Below the pieces are notes generated by a model. The model searched no databases and had not been told where the DNA came from. It saw nothing but the letters and a program-made list of their open reading frames with translations. The position numbers and the translations under genes were made by a program. 64,000 nt of DNA from Arthrobacter sp. C2 (GTDB lineage: Bacteria > Actinomycetota > Actinomycetes > Actinomycetales > Micrococcaceae), in contig CP042428.1 in NCBI GenBank assembly GCA_024207135.1, positions 1,550,001 through 1,614,000 of the forward strand, read 5' to 3'. Within the stretch, counting starts at the first letter, position 1; every line of letters begins with the position of its first letter. Below are positions 3,529 through 15,267 of this stretch, in pieces.

Positions 3529-3744
3529 CTACAGCGGCCAGTTGTTGTTTCCGGCGGTGGTACTCGTGCCGCCATTCAGGGTCTCGTATTGCAAGGGCCA
3601 GTTGTTGTTCCCGCCCAGCGTCTTGGTAATACCGATGCTCTGCACCGACCCGCTGTCTGACCGCACAACGTCACCGGCACCACCGGCGACAACTGCCCCG
3701 GCAATAAGCATTGCGGCAAGGGCCGAACCCAGGATCTTCTTCAC
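3529..3744 (-). CDS. Small secreted peptide precursor with two NNNWPL repeats
   Basis: 71 residues from a GTG at 3744, preceded by GGAG at a 7-base distance. Residues 1-24 form a good Sec signal peptide: KK at the start, an Ala/Leu/Val core, then AVVAGGAG. The exported part of about 47 residues has no Cys and carries two copies of one motif: LGGNNNWPL at 43-51 and AGNNNWPL at 64-71. The second copy is exactly the C-terminus. Each is preceded about ten residues earlier by a TL dipeptide, suggesting an internal duplication, and the DNA repeats too (GGCCAGTTGTTGTT at about 3535 and 3598). A short mature peptide with duplicated cores and a free C-terminal core is the plan of Phr-type export/re-import signals. 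It is divergent from a TPR protein. No homologue is recognised; coding status rests on the signal peptide, RBS and repeat logic. Confidence 0.65.
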   Translation of the reverse strand: MKKILGSALAAMLIAGAVVAGGAGDVVRSDSGSVQSIGITKTLGGNNNWPLQYETLNGGTSTTAGNNNWPL

Positions 3745-3857
3745 GTATTCTCCATCTCATTCAGAATTCGGGCGAGTGTTCGGAGCATTGCCCATATTTG
3801 CCGCACCCGGGAACGGGACGACAGCCCCACGGGATATCCTAGCGCTCACCTGATGTT
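3745..3857. promoter_or_regulatory. Shared divergent promoter region, peptide / TPR gene
   Basis: 113 bases separate the two divergent starts. The segment contains the palindrome GGATATCC (3832-3839), next to the TPR gene, which could serve as an operator. No confident -10/-35 pair could be assigned on either strand. Joint regulation is inferred from the layout. Confidence 0.35.
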
Positions 3858-4958
3858 TTGGAGTTGAATTCGTCATCGGATTTCATGGAACCACTGCCCT
3901 TCGAGGATTTGCCGGAAGCCCGGCGGTGGGAGTACATGAGGGTGGCCGCCACCGGATGCAGCATAATTGAGATTATGCACCACCCCTCCGCCGAAGCCCG
4001 CGCCGCCAAGGCGGAAGCGCACCACCGCAGGATTCGGAATTCGGGAGACCAGCAGCAGGTGCTCGAAGCCGCCCGGGAGTGCGCCAGAATCTATGCGTCG
4101 ATGGGCGATCGGGTCAAGGAATCCGTTTTCCTCTACGACATGGGAAAAAGCCAGGTGTTAACGGGTGCCTATATGGCTGCCTTCCAAACCGCGGAAACTA
4201 TCCTCGCTTTTCCCCGGATACAAAACGACCCGGTGTTCAAGGCCCAGGTATTGATCCTGCGTGCAGCAGCTCTTCGCAACCAAGCACATCACGAAGAGGC
4301 CGTGGACACCGCGCGCACGGCGTTGGCCGTCTTGTCCGACGTCAAAGACCGACACGAAGCACGAGCTGAAGCGTACCAAGGAATCATTGCCTGCCTGGTC
4401 GAGGCTGGCCGCGCCGACGAGGCCTGGGCTGTCCGTGACCTGTTGTCTGCCACCTTGGAACACGTGGAAGACACTATGTTGGCTGGCCAGGGCTTCTGGA
4501 CATTGGGAAACCTCGCATTCGCCAAGGGCCACGAGGCCGAGGGCAACGCCTACCACGAGTGCGCGGCTGACCACCTCCAACAGGTCAATGACATCCACAT
4601 GTGGGCACGGTTCAACAATGCGAGCGCCGATGTGCAGCTCCAGGCGGGAGTCGCCAACGAGCGCACCGATGACTGCATTATCCGTGCCCAGCTTGCTTAC
4701 GACATCATCGGAGGAAGTGCGGTGGAGCTACTGGGCCTGGCCGGAACCCGGGCACGGTGGTATGTGGCCAACGGAGAGCTAGAGAAAGCGTCCTCGTTGC
4801 TGGAGCGAGCACTGTCCGACGCCTATGGCTCCGGGGCACCGGAAGACGCCTCGGTGCATCGGCTCTGGTCGGAAATCCTCCACGCCACGGGGCGTTTCGA
4901 GGATGCGCACCGGGAAAGCGTGCGCGCTGCCCTGATTGAAGCGGACACGGGCAGCTGA
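3858..4958 (+). CDS. TPR-repeat protein, Rap-like candidate peptide receptor
   Basis: 366 residues from a TTG at 3858; an ATG at 3885 (357 residues) is an equally possible start. A stop at 3840 in the same frame excludes a longer N-terminus, so there is no room for a helix-turn-helix domain. From residue 50 to the end the protein is a run of helix-turn-helix hairpins with TPR spacing (for example AYMAAFQTAETILAF, EEAVDTARTALAVL, GHEAEGNAYHECAADHLQ, GELEKASSLLERALSD): about six repeats after an N-terminal helical bundle. Length and plan match Bacillus Rap proteins (about 370-390 residues, N-terminal bundle plus TPRs, no DNA-binding domain) and the TPR half of RRNPP receptors. Sequence similarity to Rap is not evident. 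It is paired with the NNNWPL peptide gene. A peptide-sensing role is inference. Confidence 0.7.
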   Translation: MELNSSSDFMEPLPFEDLPEARRWEYMRVAATGCSIIEIMHHPSAEARAAKAEAHHRRIRNSGDQQQVLEAARECARIYASMGDRVKESVFLYDMGKSQVLTGAYMAAFQTAETILAFPRIQNDPVFKAQVLILRAAALRNQAHHEEAVDTARTALAVLSDVKDRHEARAEAYQGIIACLVEAGRADEAWAVRDLLSATLEHVEDTMLAGQGFWTLGNLAFAKGHEAEGNAYHECAADHLQQVNDIHMWARFNNASADVQLQAGVANERTDDCIIRAQLAYDIIGGSAVELLGLAGTRARWYVANGELEKASSLLERALSDAYGSGAPEDASVHRLWSEILHATGRFEDAHRESVRAALIEADTGS

Positions 4959-4983: not shown

Positions 4984-6549
4984 CTAGGGCTTCTTCTGCG
5001 ATTCCTTGAGGATTTCGCTGACTTGCCCGTTTGCCAAACGGGACCACGGAGAATCCGCTGAGCCTTGCGCCGCGGCTTCGGGGTTCTGGGCCTGGTTCCA
5101 CCATTTGGCCTCGAAAATCCGGCCGTCAAACAAGATCCGTTCCCCCTTGTCATACACCTTGGTGGACGACCAGGCCGGATAGAGTCCTGTGGGCACCGCG
5201 ACGGGGATTTCCGGCTTGTCTCCGGGAAGCACAGGTCCAATCAAGCTCCATGGGATCGCTCGCGCGTCACTGGCCGGAAGATCCGGTATTTCCCCCTGGG
5301 TCCACCATTTTGCCTCGTAAACGTTGCCGCGCCAGACGACGCGTTCCGATTTGGGGTAGGCGGATTCGGTGTTCCATACCGGGTAGGGGCTCTTCGCGGG
5401 GTCATCGACGATGGCAGTCTCCACGGGGGCTTCAACTGGAGCGTCATTGGTCGCCACCGGGCGGTCGGAGGAATCTAGGTCGGCCGCAAGCGTCCGTGCA
5501 AAGGCACCGTCTTCCTGGGTGACGCCGCTGCAGTTATTCGATACCCGTTTCAGATCCGGGAAGTTCGGTCCGCAGTCGGCATCTCTGTTGGCCGACCACA
5601 TCGAAAGCCGTCCTATGCCGTTGGTCGTGGAAAATTCCTTTAATGCCCTCGCGTCGTCCAGCGTGAATATCTCTCCAAGCAAGTCGTTCTGACCGATCAT
5701 GGGGGTGAGCCCAATCTTGGCCCAGAGGGTGCGATCCCCTATTTCCTGTCCGAGCTGGGAATAGAGCGCCTTGATCTGCTGGTGTGCGCTACGTGCCCCT
5801 TGTTCCGAGGCCGAGGCCATGCTCTGGCCCGCTGAACGAGTATCGCCGAAGTTCATGGTCATGAGATTCACGCCTGCGAGGTCGACGCCGCCTTCGAGGA
5901 GCCGCTTGACCTCGCCCAGTCCGGATTCCGTCAGCCCCCGGGTGTCCACAGGAAGCGTCACCCAGACCTCCACTGGTTTTCCCGACTCCATAGCACGGGA
6001 TTGAAGTGCCGACACAGCTGAAGCACGGCGCAACGAAGCGGCGGCATCCTCGAGGTCGTTTCCCTCGACGTCCAGGTCCAGGGTGGTGGAACCGTATCGC
6101 TGGAGGAACGATTCGTATCCGTCAATGATCTTTTGCTCATCGGTGCAGGCGGTGGCCAGTTCGTCGTTGTTCAACCCGCCGGTGGAGATCACGATTTCGC
6201 CGCCTTGTTCATGCACCCGGGCCACCTTACGGTCCAGGTCGAACGTCTCGTTGGCGCTGTCCATGCTGTAGTAGCCGCCCCACGAATTCGCACAGCTGTC
6301 CTTGGGATCGGCCACGGCGAACCCAAGAACCACGCGTTGTCCAGGTACTAGGTTTTGGGCAATCGGATAGAACGGCGTCGATGTCGCATCGACGTAGGAC
6401 CCGAACCAGCGTCCCGTATCAGCTGCTCTGGCCGAGTCGCGGGATGTGTTCCAGTAATACGTTCCAGCGGCCACCAGCCCGGCAATCGCCAGGGCAAGAG
6501 CCGCCACCCGGACCCATGAAAGGCGTCTGCCCGTGGTCAAGTTAGACAC
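4984..6549 (-). CDS. Membrane-anchored GH18 chitinase-like protein with two CBM5/12 modules
   Basis: 521 residues. An N-terminal signal anchor spans about 12-31. The GH18 barrel runs from about 45 to 370, with the catalytic motif DLDVE at 158-162 (family pattern DxxDxDxE; its first Asp is replaced by Thr) and the substrate-side MTMNFGD strand typical of bacterial GH18 enzymes. Two chitin-binding modules follow (about 388-425 and 458-495), each with the family order W...AY/VY...ERV/ERI...G...(Y/F)EAKWW. The short GH18 barrel resembles chitinase-D-like domains. It should hydrolyse chitin or another beta-1,4-GlcNAc polymer outside the membrane. Divergent from the GT2 operon and just downstream (convergent) of the TPR gene: it may trim the polymer made next door or degrade external chitin. 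Confidence 0.88.
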   Translation of the reverse strand: MSNLTTGRRLSWVRVAALALAIAGLVAAGTYYWNTSRDSARAADTGRWFGSYVDATSTPFYPIAQNLVPGQRVVLGFAVADPKDSCANSWGGYYSMDSANETFDLDRKVARVHEQGGEIVISTGGLNNDELATACTDEQKIIDGYESFLQRYGSTTLDLDVEGNDLEDAAASLRRASAVSALQSRAMESGKPVEVWVTLPVDTRGLTESGLGEVKRLLEGGVDLAGVNLMTMNFGDTRSAGQSMASASEQGARSAHQQIKALYSQLGQEIGDRTLWAKIGLTPMIGQNDLLGEIFTLDDARALKEFSTTNGIGRLSMWSANRDADCGPNFPDLKRVSNNCSGVTQEDGAFARTLAADLDSSDRPVATNDAPVEAPVETAIVDDPAKSPYPVWNTESAYPKSERVVWRGNVYEAKWWTQGEIPDLPASDARAIPWSLIGPVLPGDKPEIPVAVPTGLYPAWSSTKVYDKGERILFDGRIFEAKWWNQAQNPEAAAQGSADSPWSRLANGQVSEILKESQKKP

Positions 6550-6811: not shown

Positions 6812-9130
6812 TTGAACAACATCAGCACGAATGCACGCACGGCTTCACCAGACATTCGCAAGCGGCAGTGGGGCGCGGAAAAGCGTTCCGAGCCCCTGTC
6901 GATTGTTCATCCCGTCCCCTCGCGCGGCAAGTTGGCTTGGGGGCGCATAGCAATCGTCACGACCATTCTGGCCTGGATCGGCTACGTCATCAGCACCATC
7001 CTGAGGCAACTGGCCGACAACCCCGATGCGGGCTTCAGGTTCCGTTTCGAGGCGGCAATGTACCTCGCCGTGGTCACCTTTCTGACTTTCTCCGCGTTGA
7101 TGTACCTCGTCGCCAGGCAAGGTGCCCTTCTGCGCTTCTCACAACACCGACGAGTGCCCCGAGGTGAGCTGGATCGGCACTTCCGTTCCTATAACAAGTC
7201 GATCACTACGCTGGTTCCTAGCTATGCCGAAGAGCCAGCCGTGGTCAGGAAAACGCTCTGGTCCGTGGCCTTGCAGGAGTTCACGAACCTGCACGTGGTG
7301 CTTCTTGTGGATGACGATCCCTACCCGGAAGACCCGGACATCCTGGCCAAGCTCGAGGAAACGCGTGGCTTGGCACTGGAAATCCAGCAGTCCCTGGAAC
7401 TTCCGTTGAGGATGGCCCAGGACTTCCGGGTCCTTTTTGAACGCCAACGAGAGGCAGGGGCCTCGCCTGCCCAAATCCTGGCCACCACCATTGCCGCCTA
7501 CGATGCTGCCGCGGTCTGGCTCGAAGAAATGGCCACCGCGGAAAGGATCGACGACCATGTCGACGAGTTTTTCGTTGATTCGGTCATCATGGGACTTGCT
7601 CGCGAGCTGCGCCTGACACTGTTGGCCCTGAACGCGGCTGCCGCACAAAACGATTCGCCTCACAGCGACAGGTTGGAAGAATTCCATCTGCGGCTGGAAC
7701 GTATTTTCTCCGTCCGGATGCACACCTTCGAACGCAAGAAGTACGCAAATCTGTCCCAAGCGGTGAACAAGGCGATGAACCTGAACGCCTATATCTCCCT
7801 CATGGGCCAAAAGTGGCTGGTGGACAACCGCGGAGATGTGGAGGTGCTTCGCGCGGTGTCACCGACGCAGGAAACCACGGACATGGACCAAGTCCTGGAC
7901 ATCCCGGACTCCGAATACCTGCTCACGCTTGACGCCGACTCGCTGCTGCTGCGCGATTATTGCCTGCGCTTGGTTTACTTCCTGGAGTCCGAGGAGAATT
8001 CGCGCGTGGCGGTGACGCAAACCCCCTACTCTTCATTCCGAGGTGCGCCCACCCGCATCGAGCGCTTGGCTGGCGCCACGACAGACATCCAGCACATCTT
8101 GCACCAGGGCAAGACCCTTTACAATGCCACCTTCTGGGTTGGCGCCAATGCAGTGATCCGCAAACAGGCACTTGTGGATATCTGCCAGACCACAACCGTC
8201 GGCGGGTATGAAATCCACACCTACATCCAGGACCGAACCGTCATCGAGGACACCGAGTCAAGCATCGACCTCGGCACCCACGGCTGGACCCTGTCCAATT
8301 ACCCGGAGCGACTCAGTTACAGTGCGACTCCCCCGGATTTCGGCTCGCTGGTGGTCCAACGACGTCGTTGGGCCAATGGCGGTCTTTTGATCCTGCCCAA
8401 GTTTGGTCGACAGATCGGTGAGCGTAAGCGACGCAACGAACGCATCCGATTGCGCGAGGTGCTCCTGCGGGTCAATTACATGGCATCAATTGCCTGGGCC
8501 AGCCTTGGCCTGATCTTCCTTCTGGCCTATCCATACGACGGGCGTTTGCTCAGCCCGCTGATCTTTGTCGCGGCGTTGCCCTACTTCATCGCCATGGGAA
8601 GCGACCTCCGGGACTGCGGGCACCGATTCAGCGATGTCTTCAGGATCTACGGGTTCAACCTGATCCTCCTGCCGGTCAATATGGCAGGGGTGCTCAAGTC
8701 CACGGAACAGGCATTCACCGGCGAGAAAATCCCATTCGTCAGGACACCGAAGGTCCGCAATCGCACCGCATCTCCAGGTCTCTACGTGGCCATCCCATAC
8801 CTGATCGTCTTCTTTTCGATCTTCACATTGTGGCGGGACTTCCAGGACCGCAACTGGGGAAATGTTGCCTTTGCCGCATTGAACACCGTGTTGGCCCTCT
8901 ATGCCATACGCGCCTACATCGGCTTCAAGAACTCCGTTGTTGACATGGCCCTGGGGTTGGTGAATTGGCTTTTTGTCCCGCCGAAGAAGGCCAAAGACGC
9001 CACGGTTTCCTACCCCGTGGCCACACCGGAAAACACGGACTGGTCGACCTTGTTGTATCAAGGTGACCGACGATTGGATCGTGATTTGCGCGGAACCGAC
9101 GATCGCCGCAAACGGATTGGTGTGAAGTAA
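6812..9130 (+). CDS. Processive GT2 family glycosyltransferase, membrane polysaccharide synthase
   Basis: 772 residues from a TTG at 6812; no ATG gives a full-length domain. Two N-terminal membrane helices (about 44-65 and 80-101) precede a cytosolic GT-A domain carrying the processive-synthase residues in order: LLVDDDP (about 164-170), DAD (about 374-376), the general-base region IEDTE (about 477-481) and QRRRW (about 514-518). C-terminal membrane helices (about 555-760) would form the translocation channel. A long helical insert (about 175-340) between the first Asp cluster and DAD is unusual for cellulose- or chitin-synthase types. The DxD/ED/Q(x)xRW set is diagnostic of cellulose/chitin/hyaluronan-type synthases; the sugar cannot be told from sequence. 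Followed after 2 bases by the STAS-like gene and then a GGDEF-EAL gene, pointing to c-di-GMP-controlled extracellular polysaccharide. No PilZ domain is seen. Confidence 0.88.
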   Translation: MNNISTNARTASPDIRKRQWGAEKRSEPLSIVHPVPSRGKLAWGRIAIVTTILAWIGYVISTILRQLADNPDAGFRFRFEAAMYLAVVTFLTFSALMYLVARQGALLRFSQHRRVPRGELDRHFRSYNKSITTLVPSYAEEPAVVRKTLWSVALQEFTNLHVVLLVDDDPYPEDPDILAKLEETRGLALEIQQSLELPLRMAQDFRVLFERQREAGASPAQILATTIAAYDAAAVWLEEMATAERIDDHVDEFFVDSVIMGLARELRLTLLALNAAAAQNDSPHSDRLEEFHLRLERIFSVRMHTFERKKYANLSQAVNKAMNLNAYISLMGQKWLVDNRGDVEVLRAVSPTQETTDMDQVLDIPDSEYLLTLDADSLLLRDYCLRLVYFLESEENSRVAVTQTPYSSFRGAPTRIERLAGATTDIQHILHQGKTLYNATFWVGANAVIRKQALVDICQTTTVGGYEIHTYIQDRTVIEDTESSIDLGTHGWTLSNYPERLSYSATPPDFGSLVVQRRRWANGGLLILPKFGRQIGERKRRNERIRLREVLLRVNYMASIAWASLGLIFLLAYPYDGRLLSPLIFVAALPYFIAMGSDLRDCGHRFSDVFRIYGFNLILLPVNMAGVLKSTEQAFTGEKIPFVRTPKVRNRTASPGLYVAIPYLIVFFSIFTLWRDFQDRNWGNVAFAALNTVLALYAIRAYIGFKNSVVDMALGLVNWLFVPPKKAKDATVSYPVATPENTDWSTLLYQGDRRLDRDLRGTDDRRKRIGVK

Positions 9131-9132
9131 CC

Positions 9133-9594
9133 ATGGGACAGGTTCCCCTTCTCGAGATTGGCTTGCTGCTGGACGGACTTAGTCCGATCGCGGACGCGAC
9201 GTCTGAAGGCACGGCAGAGCAAGCGGTTTGGAGCCTGGACGTCAAGCATGCCCGGCTCACTTTCTTCGCCAACGAATTGCTTGAGGTCGTTTTCCATCCC
9301 CGGACGGTGTTGTCAGTCGAGACGGTCCGGGAGCTCTGGGGACTTGCGGACGCGCGCCTCGAACGGAAGGTGAAGTACTTGCTGGTTGATGTATGCGGCA
9401 TTGACAGTGTGAAACCCAATGTCACTGCCCTGATTGATCCGATGACCGAGGGCATGCGCACGGCTCTGCTGGGCTCCGGACCCGCAGACCGCGTGCTGGC
9501 ACGATTCTTCATGCGCAAGGTCGATCCTGCGCGACGGTATATGTATGTCGAAAGCCGGCAGGACGCACTCGCGTTCTTCCACGAAGATGACTGA
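9133..9594 (+). CDS. STAS/SpoIIAA-like small protein of the polysaccharide operon
   Basis: 153 residues, ATG two bases after the GT2 stop. The central pattern of alternating strands and helices (VKYLLVDVCGIDSV, then MRTALLGSGPADRVLARFFM, then RYMYVESRQDALAFF near the C-terminus) matches the SpoIIAA/STAS-like family often written as STAS/SEC14 domain proteins in actinobacteria. No catalytic residues are apparent. STAS proteins usually act as phospho-switch partners or lipid/nucleotide sensors. Its position between a synthase and a GGDEF-EAL protein suggests a regulatory adaptor for polysaccharide synthesis. Its last bases overlap the next start, so the two are translationally coupled. Partner unknown. 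Confidence 0.65.
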   Translation: MGQVPLLEIGLLLDGLSPIADATSEGTAEQAVWSLDVKHARLTFFANELLEVVFHPRTVLSVETVRELWGLADARLERKVKYLLVDVCGIDSVKPNVTALIDPMTEGMRTALLGSGPADRVLARFFMRKVDPARRYMYVESRQDALAFFHEDD

Positions 9595-11131
9595 CCCCGG
9601 CCCTCTCGAGATGGACGAACCCCGTATTCCGCGCATTGTCGACGCCATCCTCAGGATCGCGGACATGGATTTCGATACCCTATTGCATCCCAGCAGCCGG
9701 CGCGATGAGATCGACGCCATCATCATGGGGATCAATGCCATGGCCGCTGACCTGGAAACGACGTATTCCACGCTTGATCGCCGGGTGGCAGAGCGCACGC
9801 GGTTGCTCGAGGCGGCCCGCGACCAAATGGCGTTGTTGGCCTACACGGACCCCTTGACCCAGCTCGCGAATCGTTCCGCCTTGATGGAGGAAATCAACAA
9901 GACGCTTGTCGAGCCCGGCACGGGTCCCTCGGCCCCGATCTTGATGCTCCTGGATCTGGATGCCTTCAAGAGCATCAACGATACCTACGGCCATGCACTG
10001 GGCGACAAGGTCCTGTGCCAGCTCGCCGAGAGGCTTCGCGGTTGTGTGCGCGCCGAGGACCTCGTGGCGAGACTCGGAGGCGACGAATTCGCCATCCTGG
10101 TGCACGCACCGGAACACAACGCCGTCGCCCTGGGCCGACGCATCGTTGCGGCGATGAACCAGGACATGGTGATCGACAACATCCACCTGAGCCCCGGGGC
10201 CAGCCTTGGCATTGCCCGGACAACGCCGTCGCATTCGCCGGACAGCCTCGTGCTTGAGGCGGACACAGCCATGTATGTGGCCAAGCGCTCGGTAAGCGAA
10301 AAGGTCGTGGAATTCGAGCCGTTCATGCTGTTTGAACGACGTGAGAAGGCCGAGATGCTCTCCGATCTCCGACATTCACTGGACGGCGAGCAGTTCTTCC
10401 CTGCTTACCAAGCAGTGGTCCGCCTCAAGGATGAGGCAATCATCGGCGCAGAGGCCTTGGTGAGGTGGAATCGAGCGGGCCACGGGCTCGTGCGTCCAGA
10501 CGAGTTCCTCCCCGCTGCCGAGGAGGCGGGCATGGTCGGCAAACTGACTGAATACCTGCTGGATCGGGTACTGAGCGACGTCAAGAGGTGGCGGGCGGCC
10601 AAGCTCGTCGGCGCAGATTTCAAGGTCCACCTCAACGTGACCTCGCGTGGACTGCACGACCTGGGCTTCGCCGACGAGGTGCGCAGGGTCTTGCGCCAGC
10701 ATGAACTTCCGGCAACCGTGCTGGCCTTGGAAATCACCGAGAACAACTTGATGTCGGGTGACAACCTGCACCGCTATACCTTGATGGCTTTGGCGAAGAT
10801 GGGGGTTGAGGTCTTTATTGACGACTTTGGCACCGGCTACTCCTCAATCAGCTATCTGCGCCAGCTGCCCGTGACCGGAGCCAAGATCGACAGGACTCTC
10901 GTTGACGACATTGCCGTGAACCCGAAGCAGGAATCCTTCCTTCGCGCCATCTCCGACTTGATTGCAGCTTGTGACCTTGAGTGCGTCGTCGAAGGAGTGG
11001 AGACTGCCGAGCAATCGGCGAAGCTCAAGGCCATGGGGTTCACAACCGTCCAGGGATTCCACTATGCCGTTCCGCTGGACGCAGCCGCATTCGAGGAACT
11101 GTTGCGGATGCGCCGCCAAGCGCTCGCGTGA
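9587..11131 (+). CDS. GGDEF-EAL dual-domain c-di-GMP enzyme with HAMP-like N-terminus
   Basis: 514 residues from the ATG at 9587, which overlaps the stop of the STAS-like gene; a TTG-type start at 9545 would add 14 residues. Residues 15-80 resemble a soluble HAMP/coiled-coil linker (LLHPSSRRDEIDAIIMGINAM, then VAERTRLLEAARDQ). The GGDEF domain (about 85-245) has an intact RLGGDEF active site (about 162-168); no RxxD inhibitory site stands just upstream. The EAL domain (about 255-505) has AEALVRW (about 287), TENNL, DDFGTGYSS and KIDRTLV, all the metal and catalytic landmarks, so both activities are possible. No membrane segment or sensory domain. It probably sets c-di-GMP for the GT2 synthase two genes upstream. 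Confidence 0.9.
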   Translation: MTDPGPLEMDEPRIPRIVDAILRIADMDFDTLLHPSSRRDEIDAIIMGINAMAADLETTYSTLDRRVAERTRLLEAARDQMALLAYTDPLTQLANRSALMEEINKTLVEPGTGPSAPILMLLDLDAFKSINDTYGHALGDKVLCQLAERLRGCVRAEDLVARLGGDEFAILVHAPEHNAVALGRRIVAAMNQDMVIDNIHLSPGASLGIARTTPSHSPDSLVLEADTAMYVAKRSVSEKVVEFEPFMLFERREKAEMLSDLRHSLDGEQFFPAYQAVVRLKDEAIIGAEALVRWNRAGHGLVRPDEFLPAAEEAGMVGKLTEYLLDRVLSDVKRWRAAKLVGADFKVHLNVTSRGLHDLGFADEVRRVLRQHELPATVLALEITENNLMSGDNLHRYTLMALAKMGVEVFIDDFGTGYSSISYLRQLPVTGAKIDRTLVDDIAVNPKQESFLRAISDLIAACDLECVVEGVETAEQSAKLKAMGFTTVQGFHYAVPLDAAAFEELLRMRRQALA

Positions 11132-11719: not shown

Positions 11720-13273
<1,554 letters not shown>

Positions 13274-13428: not shown

Positions 13429-15084
13429 TCACGCCCTGATGAAGATCGCGGTGGCCCGCAATGAGTCCACGCCTGTCTGGCTGATCGACTGGATCATGTA
13501 CCAGTAGTAGTGCCCGAGCACCACCCCGGAATCCAGCCAGGACTGGGCGGAGGCGGTGCGCCGGCGCACCGTGCGCAGGTAGGTGCCGGTGGACTGGATG
13601 TAGGGGACGACCGAGCCTGTCGATTCCCAGCGCCAGATGGCGATGAGCTTGATCGGCTCCCCGCTGGAACTCGAGCTCCAGCCCAACCGCACGCCGGTGC
13701 CCTCGCGCACGGCCGTGGTGATCGTGGGCGTGTAGGGACGCACGAAGTTCAGCTGCGTGTAGGGCACCGGCAGGGCGGGACGTGCGTACTTGGCGGCCTT
13801 GAGGATCCCGATGGCGTTGAGCTTGTTCGCCCGCACGGCGGTGGTATTGTAGTACGCCTGGCCGCGCACCGCCGGGACCGCACGGCACTTGGTCACGTGG
13901 TCGCGCAGCTCGTTGGGGTCCTGCCAGGCCGGGGTAGCAGGGTCCCCGACCTTGTAGGCGGCTTCCCCGGTGTAGAGCTTGACGCTGGTTCCGGCGACCT
14001 GCTTGGCCCACCAATCGACCAGCACGTTGTAGTTGGCCACGGAGTACCCCTGGTACCAGTACAACTGCGGGGCGATGTAGTCGATCCAGCCCTCCTTGAC
14101 CCAGCGCCGGGTGTCCGCGTAGAGGGCGTAGAAGCTCTCCAGCCCGCTGGTGGCGGAGCCCAGGGAGCTCGAGGAGCTGTTGGCCCAGATGCCGAAGGGA
14201 CCGATGCCGAACACCACCCGGGGCTTGGCGGCGTGGATCGCGGTGTGGGTGTCGCGCACGAACACGTTGATGTTGTTGCGCCGCCAGGAAGAGATCGAGG
14301 TGAAGGTGCCCTTGTAGGTGTTGTAGGTCGACGAGTCCGGGATCGAGGCCCCGGCCACCGGGTAGGGGTAGAAGTAGTCGTCGAAGTGCACCCCGTCCAC
14401 GTCGTAGCGCTTGACCAGGTCGACGACCACGTTGCGGATGAAGGTGCGCACCGCCGGGATGCCGGGGTTGTAGTAGCGTCGCGGGCCGTAGGCGAAGGAC
14501 CAGGAAGGGTTCAGCCGCGCCGGGTGGCTGGCCACCAGCGAGGTCAGCGAGGTGTCCATCGATACGCGGAAGGGGTTGATCCACGCGTGCAGGGCGATCC
14601 CGCGCTTGTGCGCCTCGGAGATGGCGTAGGCCAGCGGGTCGTAGCCCGGGTCCGTGCCCTGGGTGCCGGTGAGGTACTTGGACCAGGGCTCGCCCAGGGT
14701 GGCCTTCCACATCCGGTCCGCGGCCGGGCGGACCTGCAGCAGCACGGCGTTGAGGTTGCGGGACACCGCCAGGTCCAGGATCGAGCGCAGCTCCGCCTGC
14801 TGGGTGGTCACGGACAGCCCGGATTTGGAGGGCCAGTCGATGTTCAGCACGCTCGCGGTCCACAGGGCGCGGAACTCGGTGCGCGGGTAGGTGGCGGAGG
14901 TGAAGGTGTTGCGCGAGGAGATGGTGTAGACGTGGTTCCGGGTGACCGCCGCCGCGGCGGGGGCCGCCACCAGTCCGGGGCCCAGCACGGCTCCTCCCAA
15001 CACCGCCACGGCGGCCGAGAGCACCGCCCTCCTGCTCACGGGGCCGGCAAGGGCCAGGGACAATGGTGCCATTTCCGTTTTCAT
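13429..15084 (-). CDS. Secreted GHL10/DUF187-type glycosidase-like protein
   Basis: 551 residues from the ATG at 15084. Twin-arginine-like signal: SRRAVLSAAVAVLGG, then AAPAAAA at the cleavage region. The mature part has the GHL10 (family-10-like, PF02638) barrel: TEFRALWTASVLNIDWPS at the start, NAVLLQVRPAADRMW, GIALHAWINPFRV, then VDGVHFDDYFYPYP with the acidic pair on strand 4, FGIGPFGIWANSS and WIDYIAPQLYWYQGY. The last about 90 residues look like a fibronectin-III type domain. Homologues act on peptidoglycan- or surface-glycan-type substrates, but specificity here is unknown. It lies downstream of the SGNH acyltransferase gene on the same strand (183-base gap), so both may shape the cell envelope. 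Confidence 0.85.
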   Translation of the reverse strand: MKTEMAPLSLALAGPVSRRAVLSAAVAVLGGAVLGPGLVAAPAAAAVTRNHVYTISSRNTFTSATYPRTEFRALWTASVLNIDWPSKSGLSVTTQQAELRSILDLAVSRNLNAVLLQVRPAADRMWKATLGEPWSKYLTGTQGTDPGYDPLAYAISEAHKRGIALHAWINPFRVSMDTSLTSLVASHPARLNPSWSFAYGPRRYYNPGIPAVRTFIRNVVVDLVKRYDVDGVHFDDYFYPYPVAGASIPDSSTYNTYKGTFTSISSWRRNNINVFVRDTHTAIHAAKPRVVFGIGPFGIWANSSSSSLGSATSGLESFYALYADTRRWVKEGWIDYIAPQLYWYQGYSVANYNVLVDWWAKQVAGTSVKLYTGEAAYKVGDPATPAWQDPNELRDHVTKCRAVPAVRGQAYYNTTAVRANKLNAIGILKAAKYARPALPVPYTQLNFVRPYTPTITTAVREGTGVRLGWSSSSSGEPIKLIAIWRWESTGSVVPYIQSTGTYLRTVRRRTASAQSWLDSGVVLGHYYWYMIQSISQTGVDSLRATAIFIRA

Positions 15085-15267
15085 GGCATTGACTCCGATG
15101 GTGCGCAAGTGGGCACGGCCGGGCCGGATCGTTCGGCCGCTTGGAGGCAACAATACGCCGCACGGGGAGGGGGCAAAAGGCCCTCGGCATCACGTTTGCG
15201 CGGCACTTTTCCACGACGCTCCGGCCGGTACCAACGGTGCTTCTCGGCGCTGGCCCGGCGCTTGGAA

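Follow-up and report, generated by a model that had tools for sequence, protein, structure and literature searches.

Candidate W-P peptide signalling through TPR receptors in Arthrobacter sp. C2 and its relatives, with a possible output to c-di-GMP

Rap proteins are TPR proteins without an HTH domain; next to the gene of each lies that of a small precursor, exported by Sec, with its pheromone at the C-terminus, and the Rap and Phr genes usually stand in tandem. In PlcR-PapR, NprR-NprX, Rgg-SHP and ComR-ComS, a receptor combining an XRE HTH with TPRs is encoded beside a short peptide gene, the ComS and SHP peptides being leaderless, while in the arbitrium system (AimR-AimP) the receptor and secreted-peptide gene form a unit. 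Phr precursors may carry their pheromone in repeated form, according to PMC11343458. The RRNPP surveys PMC10075063 and PMC9765709 covered only Bacillota (Firmicutes) and, in one of the two, viruses, and the former describes actinobacterial signals as typically small molecules. Among titles and abstracts of open-licence papers, preprints excluded, we found no RRNPP-type system from Actinobacteria, Arthrobacter or Streptomyces, so that an earlier description is possible, and literature titles held no link between peptide-RRNPP systems and c-di-GMP.

Here we analyse a candidate system of this kind in a 64,000-nt stretch of the genome of Arthrobacter sp. C2 (CP042428.1), referred to below as the window, using loci of the genus Paeniglutamicibacter for comparison. 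The closest relative, 96% identical, comes from Paeniglutamicibacter psychrophenolicus (L167), and further relatives are found in P. gangotriensis, P. sulfureus, P. terrestris and Arthrobacter sp. AQ5-05. Pfam, NCBIfam, PADLOC and PHROGs named a specific family for neither the receptor nor the peptide, and a text search of the literature for the peptide cores returned no relevant paper. The features of the locus are collected in Table 1.

Table 1. Features of the candidate signalling locus, in window coordinates.
Feature	Position	Strand	Remarks
Pre-propeptide, candidate signal precursor, 71 aa	3529..3744	-	GTG start; present in all 8 receptor genomes of the genus
Sec-like signal region, residues ~1-24	3673..3744	-	Hydropathy rule
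Core copy 1, NNNWPL, residues 46-51	3592..3609	-	
Core copy 2, NNNWPL, residues 66-71	3532..3549	-	Exact C-terminus
Divergent intergenic region	3745..3974	.	If receptor starts at 3975
TPR receptor candidate without HTH, 366 codons	3858..4958	+	Divergent from precursor
GH18-like protein, membrane-anchored or secreted	4984..6549	-	Two CBM5/12 stretches; adjoins the pair in the genus; candidate output part
Membrane glycosyltransferase family 2 (GT2), candidate polysaccharide synthase	6812..9130	+	TTG start uncertain
GGDEF-EAL protein, HAMP-like N-terminus	9545..11131	+	Candidate receptor target; Pfam HAMP, GGDEF, EAL

The original prediction described a 71-residue precursor with a predicted signal peptide and two copies of NNNWPL, the second at the C-terminus, facing a TPR protein without a DNA-binding domain, for which an upstream stop codon excluded an HTH. 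Both halves of this description hold. The precursor was recovered on rereading the ORF at 3529-3744(-); its N-terminus is basic and hydrophobic, resembling a Sec signal peptide, although this prediction rests on one hydropathy rule and not on a trained predictor. Pfam matched the receptor to TPR models, the best being TPR_12 (E 9.2e-7, 29.4 bits, just below the cut-off of 30.1), and found no HTH in it, and since an in-frame TAG stands at 3840-3842, upstream of the receptor frame, no HTH precedes it. The first 39 residues of that frame are probably not translated. The receptor is likely to start at ATG 3975 and to comprise 327 aa, because the first start codon in the frame of the homologue L007 is the equivalent of Met40, the mean AlphaFold2 (AF2) pLDDT over residues 1-40 is only 31-58, and codons 1-39 differ from those of the nearest relative (L002) by 4 non-synonymous changes and 1 synonymous change, as against 10 and 17, respectively, over codons 40-366.

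Within the genus, all 13 core copies in the 8 loci read NNNWPL or NNNWPF, and the last six precursor residues are NNNWPL in seven loci and NNNWPF in one. Among 4 orthologues, the 12 core codons show no amino-acid change (3 changed synonymously, 9 unchanged), whereas the residue changed in 20 of the 33 codons outside core and signal, a pattern of codon change which indicates that purifying selection acts on the core. These data bear on the possibility that the small ORF is untranslated and owes its conservation to an overlapping DNA function in the divergent region. The ORF is indeed short, it has a GTG start (replaced by ATG at the equivalent place in L003-L006), and a scan of the window intergenic region 3745..3974 recognised no consensus sigma-70 promoter, terminator or inverted repeat. 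We nevertheless regard this possibility as extremely improbable, given that the core changes are synonymous only, that a stop codon follows the core directly in 8 of 8 genus loci, that a GGAG upstream of the precursor is kept among orthologues, and that W-P precursors of very different DNA sequence occupy the same place in other genera.

An AF2 model of the receptor, built with 34 sequences, is an all-helical TPR superhelix (pLDDT 87.3, pTM 0.77). Its best Foldseek matches in the PDB are the TPR domains of LGN/Pins (E 5e-7), followed further down by RapJ with CSF (rank 37, E 2.3e-4), RapF (rank 39) and NprR (ranks 46 and 49); with eukaryotic TPR proteins ranking first, we rejected the fold as a mark specific to RRNPP. 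Pfam, AF2 and Foldseek nonetheless agree in predicting a TPR superhelix, the C-terminal feature, with five repeats or more, by which RRNPP/RRNPPA receptors are recognised. At the sequence level, a profile built from 18 receptors (A1) matches PlcR (2qfc) over HTH and TPRs (positions 4-239, E 1.8e-8), a generic kind of similarity: designed PPR chains reach equal or higher scores, and with a further profile (A3) the PlcR match is absent at E 0.01. Rap was absent among the best 60 of 103 PDB sequence matches, at E up to 10, and descent from a Bacillus Rap was rejected on the grounds that the nearest relatives are actinobacterial receptors with and without an HTH. The receptor architecture is thus RRNPP-like, and common descent with RRNPP is possible.

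The original prediction further expected a peptide ORF beside TPR homologues and conservation of the core, and took the two genes to form a peptide-receptor module; the comparative data support it on each count. Receptor homologues (E 0.001 or better) are present in 8 of the 15 genus genomes, and every one of these also encodes the precursor (E 1.4e-6 or better), divergent from the receptor, while the other 7 gave no significant precursor match (best E 0.08, or none). Receptor and core distances are correlated (Mantel r 0.61, N 44 pairs, 0 of 5000 permutations), as joint inheritance predicts. Profile A1 finds the family in 143 of 295 Micrococcaceae-level genomes at E 1e-25, spread over 17 of 32 genera, in 18 of 297 genomes of an order sample (3 outside the family) and in 7 of 396 of a phylum sample (5 outside the family). 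This yielded 196 receptors, distinct in the sense that identical matched stretches were merged, so that near copies stay in all counts; 194 remain without two rows lacking 650-nt flanks. We then counted small ORFs of 28-150 aa with a basic and hydrophobic N-terminus, a purine-rich site and an internal W-P. Such ORFs lie divergent from 144 of the 194 receptors (44 of 46 for those without an HTH), whereas the same-strand upstream position gave 2 and the downstream and convergent positions 5 each, and some of these few are part of a neighbouring second module. ORFs with a C-terminal xxWP are divergent in 112 of 194 cases, against 2, 0 and 1 in the other three orientations. An adjacent short precursor with predicted export and a conserved core, the second feature by which RRNPP/RRNPPA systems are recognised, is hence found throughout the genus loci and in most relatives. 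We consider it very probable that precursor and receptor constitute a peptide-receptor pair.

The family falls into two classes: 149 of the 196 receptors have an XRE HTH domain N-terminal to the TPRs (HTH+), and 47 have none. The HTH-less class is defined by a profile match starting at position 30 or later and so includes L093, whose HTH region is unmatched, and L160, half of a frame-shifted HTH+ gene; these two are the only HTH-less receptors without a W-P peptide. While a W-P core runs through the wider family, its form differs between classes: HTH+ cores typically read IGNWPDPM in several tandem copies, and those of HTH-less receptors are typically single and C-terminal (GWWPN, NNWPY, GSWPF, NWWPH and similar). 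The precursors of L016, L077 and L078 contain many repeats of VGNWPDRF or VGNWPAT type, with up to 8 cores per frame. Around 40 HTH+ receptors, mostly of genus code g45, have no W-P peptide by either rule; such receptors (L072-L092, L097, L146) could be orphans or use a different core.

RiPP precursors, too, can have a leader followed by repeated short cores, and the small ORF might accordingly encode a RiPP precursor or a secreted antimicrobial or surface peptide, with the TPR protein as its regulator, immunity or processing partner; a weak NCBIfam match to the RiPP-biosynthesis TPR protein HaaT (E 1e-5, 23.9 bits against a cut-off of 1125) points the same way. Yet across the 7 other genus loci the pair has no conserved modification-enzyme neighbour (VanZ genes occur in 4 of 7, a GNAT gene in 1 of 7), in HTH-less relatives a precursor of 46-54 aa often simply ends with the core, and relatives that join an HTH to the TPRs and face a divergent precursor across a DNA dyad (described below) fit regulation. 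We judge the RiPP or antimicrobial explanation very unlikely.

That dyad, TTGACA-N28-TGTCAA, lies in the intergenic region in 91 of 101 HTH+ loci with a peptide, compared with 1 of 48 HTH+ loci without one and 0 of 47 HTH-less loci, where one mismatch was permitted in the second arm, the spacer was 28 in 89 cases and 27 in 2, and shuffled sequences gave a mean of 0.3 in 101. It was noticed by eye before being counted, so the pattern was chosen post hoc, and many of the loci are close relatives; an initial palindrome count with gaps of up to 12 had missed it. Its position would suit the binding of a regulator between the receptor and peptide genes. The dyad is absent from the window intergenic region 3745..3974, and the HTH-less branch has lost both the HTH domain and the dyad site. 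Trees made two separate HTH losses look likely, but an AU test did not reject a single clade (p 0.536); in that test a row of the window clade (L004) was grouped under the other HTH-less rows, which left the joint test unchanged.

While supported as regards the pair itself, the original prediction missed the HTH of most relatives as well as the linked genes for the GH18, GT2 and GGDEF-EAL proteins. Homologues of GH18 and GT2, and likewise the GGDEF-EAL gene, are found in 7 of 7 other genus loci. Besides the 8 receptor genomes, only G004 has the GH18 gene, which lies there 30 bases from the end of a contig that cuts off the place of the receptor. A GGDEF gene stands at the receptor locus in all 8 receptor genomes of the genus, 7 of which have no further one (G012 has 4 in total), whereas 5 of the 7 receptor-less genomes (G005, G006, G007, G011, G014) have none at all; G013 has one of another size and G004 one on the cut contig. 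In the complete window genome a PF00990 search matches the GGDEF-EAL protein at 9545-11131 alone, and no hydrophobic segment was found in it.

Across the family, 45 of 47 HTH-less receptors have a GGDEF-EAL gene linked to them, in 42 loci because L100, L103 and L109 contain two receptors each; only L093 and the split gene L160 lack one. For the HTH+ receptors the count is 0 of 149, in flanks of ~3 kb per side or less, with both flanks reaching 2.5 kb or more in 95 of the 149. Twelve of the 45 cases, namely the window, L132-L137 and L256-L259, were counted from longer stretches, and in 33 the GGDEF-EAL gene lies within 2.1 kb in the receptor's own short locus. In other genera, L093 set aside, a homologous GGDEF-EAL gene follows or precedes the HTH-less receptor in 22 of 26 loci, and in the remaining four (L099, L105, L109, L116) it lies behind GH18 and GT2 in longer stretches. 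GH18 and GT2 separate the pair from GGDEF-EAL in L256-L259, the window and 6 of the 7 other genus loci, and do not intervene in the rest of the HTH-less loci analysed. A chain of end-to-end overlaps joins the receptor gene of L182, a small DUF7793 ORF and the GGDEF-EAL gene.

It is because of this linkage that we propose c-di-GMP as the output of the HTH-less receptors. The linkage may, however, be old synteny, because near relatives are counted, and since the HTH-less receptors perhaps form just one or two clades, the 45 of 47 may reflect few independent events. The pair could then be real and act on an unlinked partner, such as a response regulator as in Rap, amid an inherited neighbourhood; in several HTH-less loci histidine kinase ORFs do lie upstream (cluster 8, and L182 by Pfam). 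Against this, GGDEF-EAL stays linked as other neighbours vary, and the window genome encodes no GGDEF protein besides it. In L138 (G012), moreover, the pair has moved to the opposite end of the block and still adjoins GGDEF-EAL, a rearrangement which weakens the synteny objection only a little. On balance we think an unlinked partner rather unlikely. The cluster 8 ORF is found upstream of the HTH-less receptors L101, L102, L106, L107, L111, L174 and L182, where it might be an alternative partner, and in L182 it is a GAF-HisKA-HATPase histidine kinase.

We therefore favour, as the probable reading, an RRNPP-like peptide-sensing family of actinobacteria in which the HTH-less branch has c-di-GMP and exopolysaccharide as its output, and we infer its processing, import, binding, partner contact and direction of effect as follows. 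The precursor would be exported by Sec and cleaved to a short W-P peptide (approximately NNNWPL or GNNNWPL), which an oligopeptide permease would return to the cytoplasm; the window genome encodes 14 SBP_bac_5 proteins, which speaks for a capacity for oligopeptide import only. There the peptide would bind the concave face of the TPR superhelix and change the shape of the receptor. HTH+ receptors would probably control the divergent promoters from which they and their peptide are expressed. In the window branch, the HTH-less receptor would contact the soluble GGDEF-EAL protein, as Rap contacts its partners, although we give direct contact just an even chance. Peptide concentration would in this way set c-di-GMP and, through it, the exopolysaccharide functions of GT2 and GH18 in the same locus. 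The fullest version, an undescribed actinobacterial quorum sensing by W-P peptides in which HTH-less receptors have been rewired to GGDEF-EAL so that the peptide directly sets c-di-GMP and thereby exopolysaccharide, is one on which we would bet neither way.

Compared with the described systems, the window pair is most like Rap-Phr, in that an HTH-less TPR protein stands beside a small precursor with predicted Sec export and a C-terminal, sometimes repeated, putative pheromone; it differs in its phylum, its W-P core, its divergent genes and the linked GGDEF-EAL in place of a response-regulator partner. The HTH+ majority resembles PlcR-PapR, NprR-NprX, Rgg-SHP and ComR-ComS in joining an XRE HTH and TPRs beside a short peptide gene, but is actinobacterial, has a W-P core, divergent genes and the TTGACA-N28-TGTCAA dyad, and shows similarity to PlcR with just one profile. 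With AimR-AimP it shares the unit of a receptor and a predicted secreted-peptide gene; arbitrium itself was rejected, as it is phage-borne and our searches of phage, plasmid and viral-contig collections found no relatives of the pair. The window finally recalls c-di-GMP-controlled exopolysaccharide loci, which combine genes for GGDEF-EAL, a glycosidase and a GT2 synthase, except that in the window these come after the genes of a peptide and a TPR receptor.

A family present in 143 of 295 Micrococcaceae-level genomes would open up testable peptide codes on the scale of a whole phylum among common soil bacteria, and its HTH-less branch allows a direct test of whether peptide sensing can plug into c-di-GMP signalling, a test kept cheap by synthetic hexa- and heptapeptides. 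A peptide ORF of this kind accompanies 4 of 8 receptor loci outside the family (L148, L149, L164, L166).

Several minor observations were made along the way. Distant HTH+ receptors in L164 and L166, two loci from beyond the order, face secreted ORFs that contain GGNWPFFDD or have GYPWPK as the exact C-terminus, and the W-P code might extend over the phylum. Leaderless ORFs of 19-21 aa ending in GDWPD or GNWPD face HTH+ receptors in L118, L124, L126, L127, L145 and L160/L162 (genus g53), divergent and ~113-115 nt from the receptor; they would be precursors of the ComS/SHP kind, a likeness seen in the HTH+ loci L124, L126, L127 and L145. L100, L103 and L109 each hold two tandem HTH-less receptor-peptide modules before one downstream block, the modules differing in core (DDWPH and GNWPG in L100, for example). 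In the window, a GHL10-type glycosyl hydrolase gene (13429-15153, -; Pfam E 2e-82) lies a few kb past the GGDEF-EAL gene, from which an IMP dehydrogenase gene (11720-13225) separates it.
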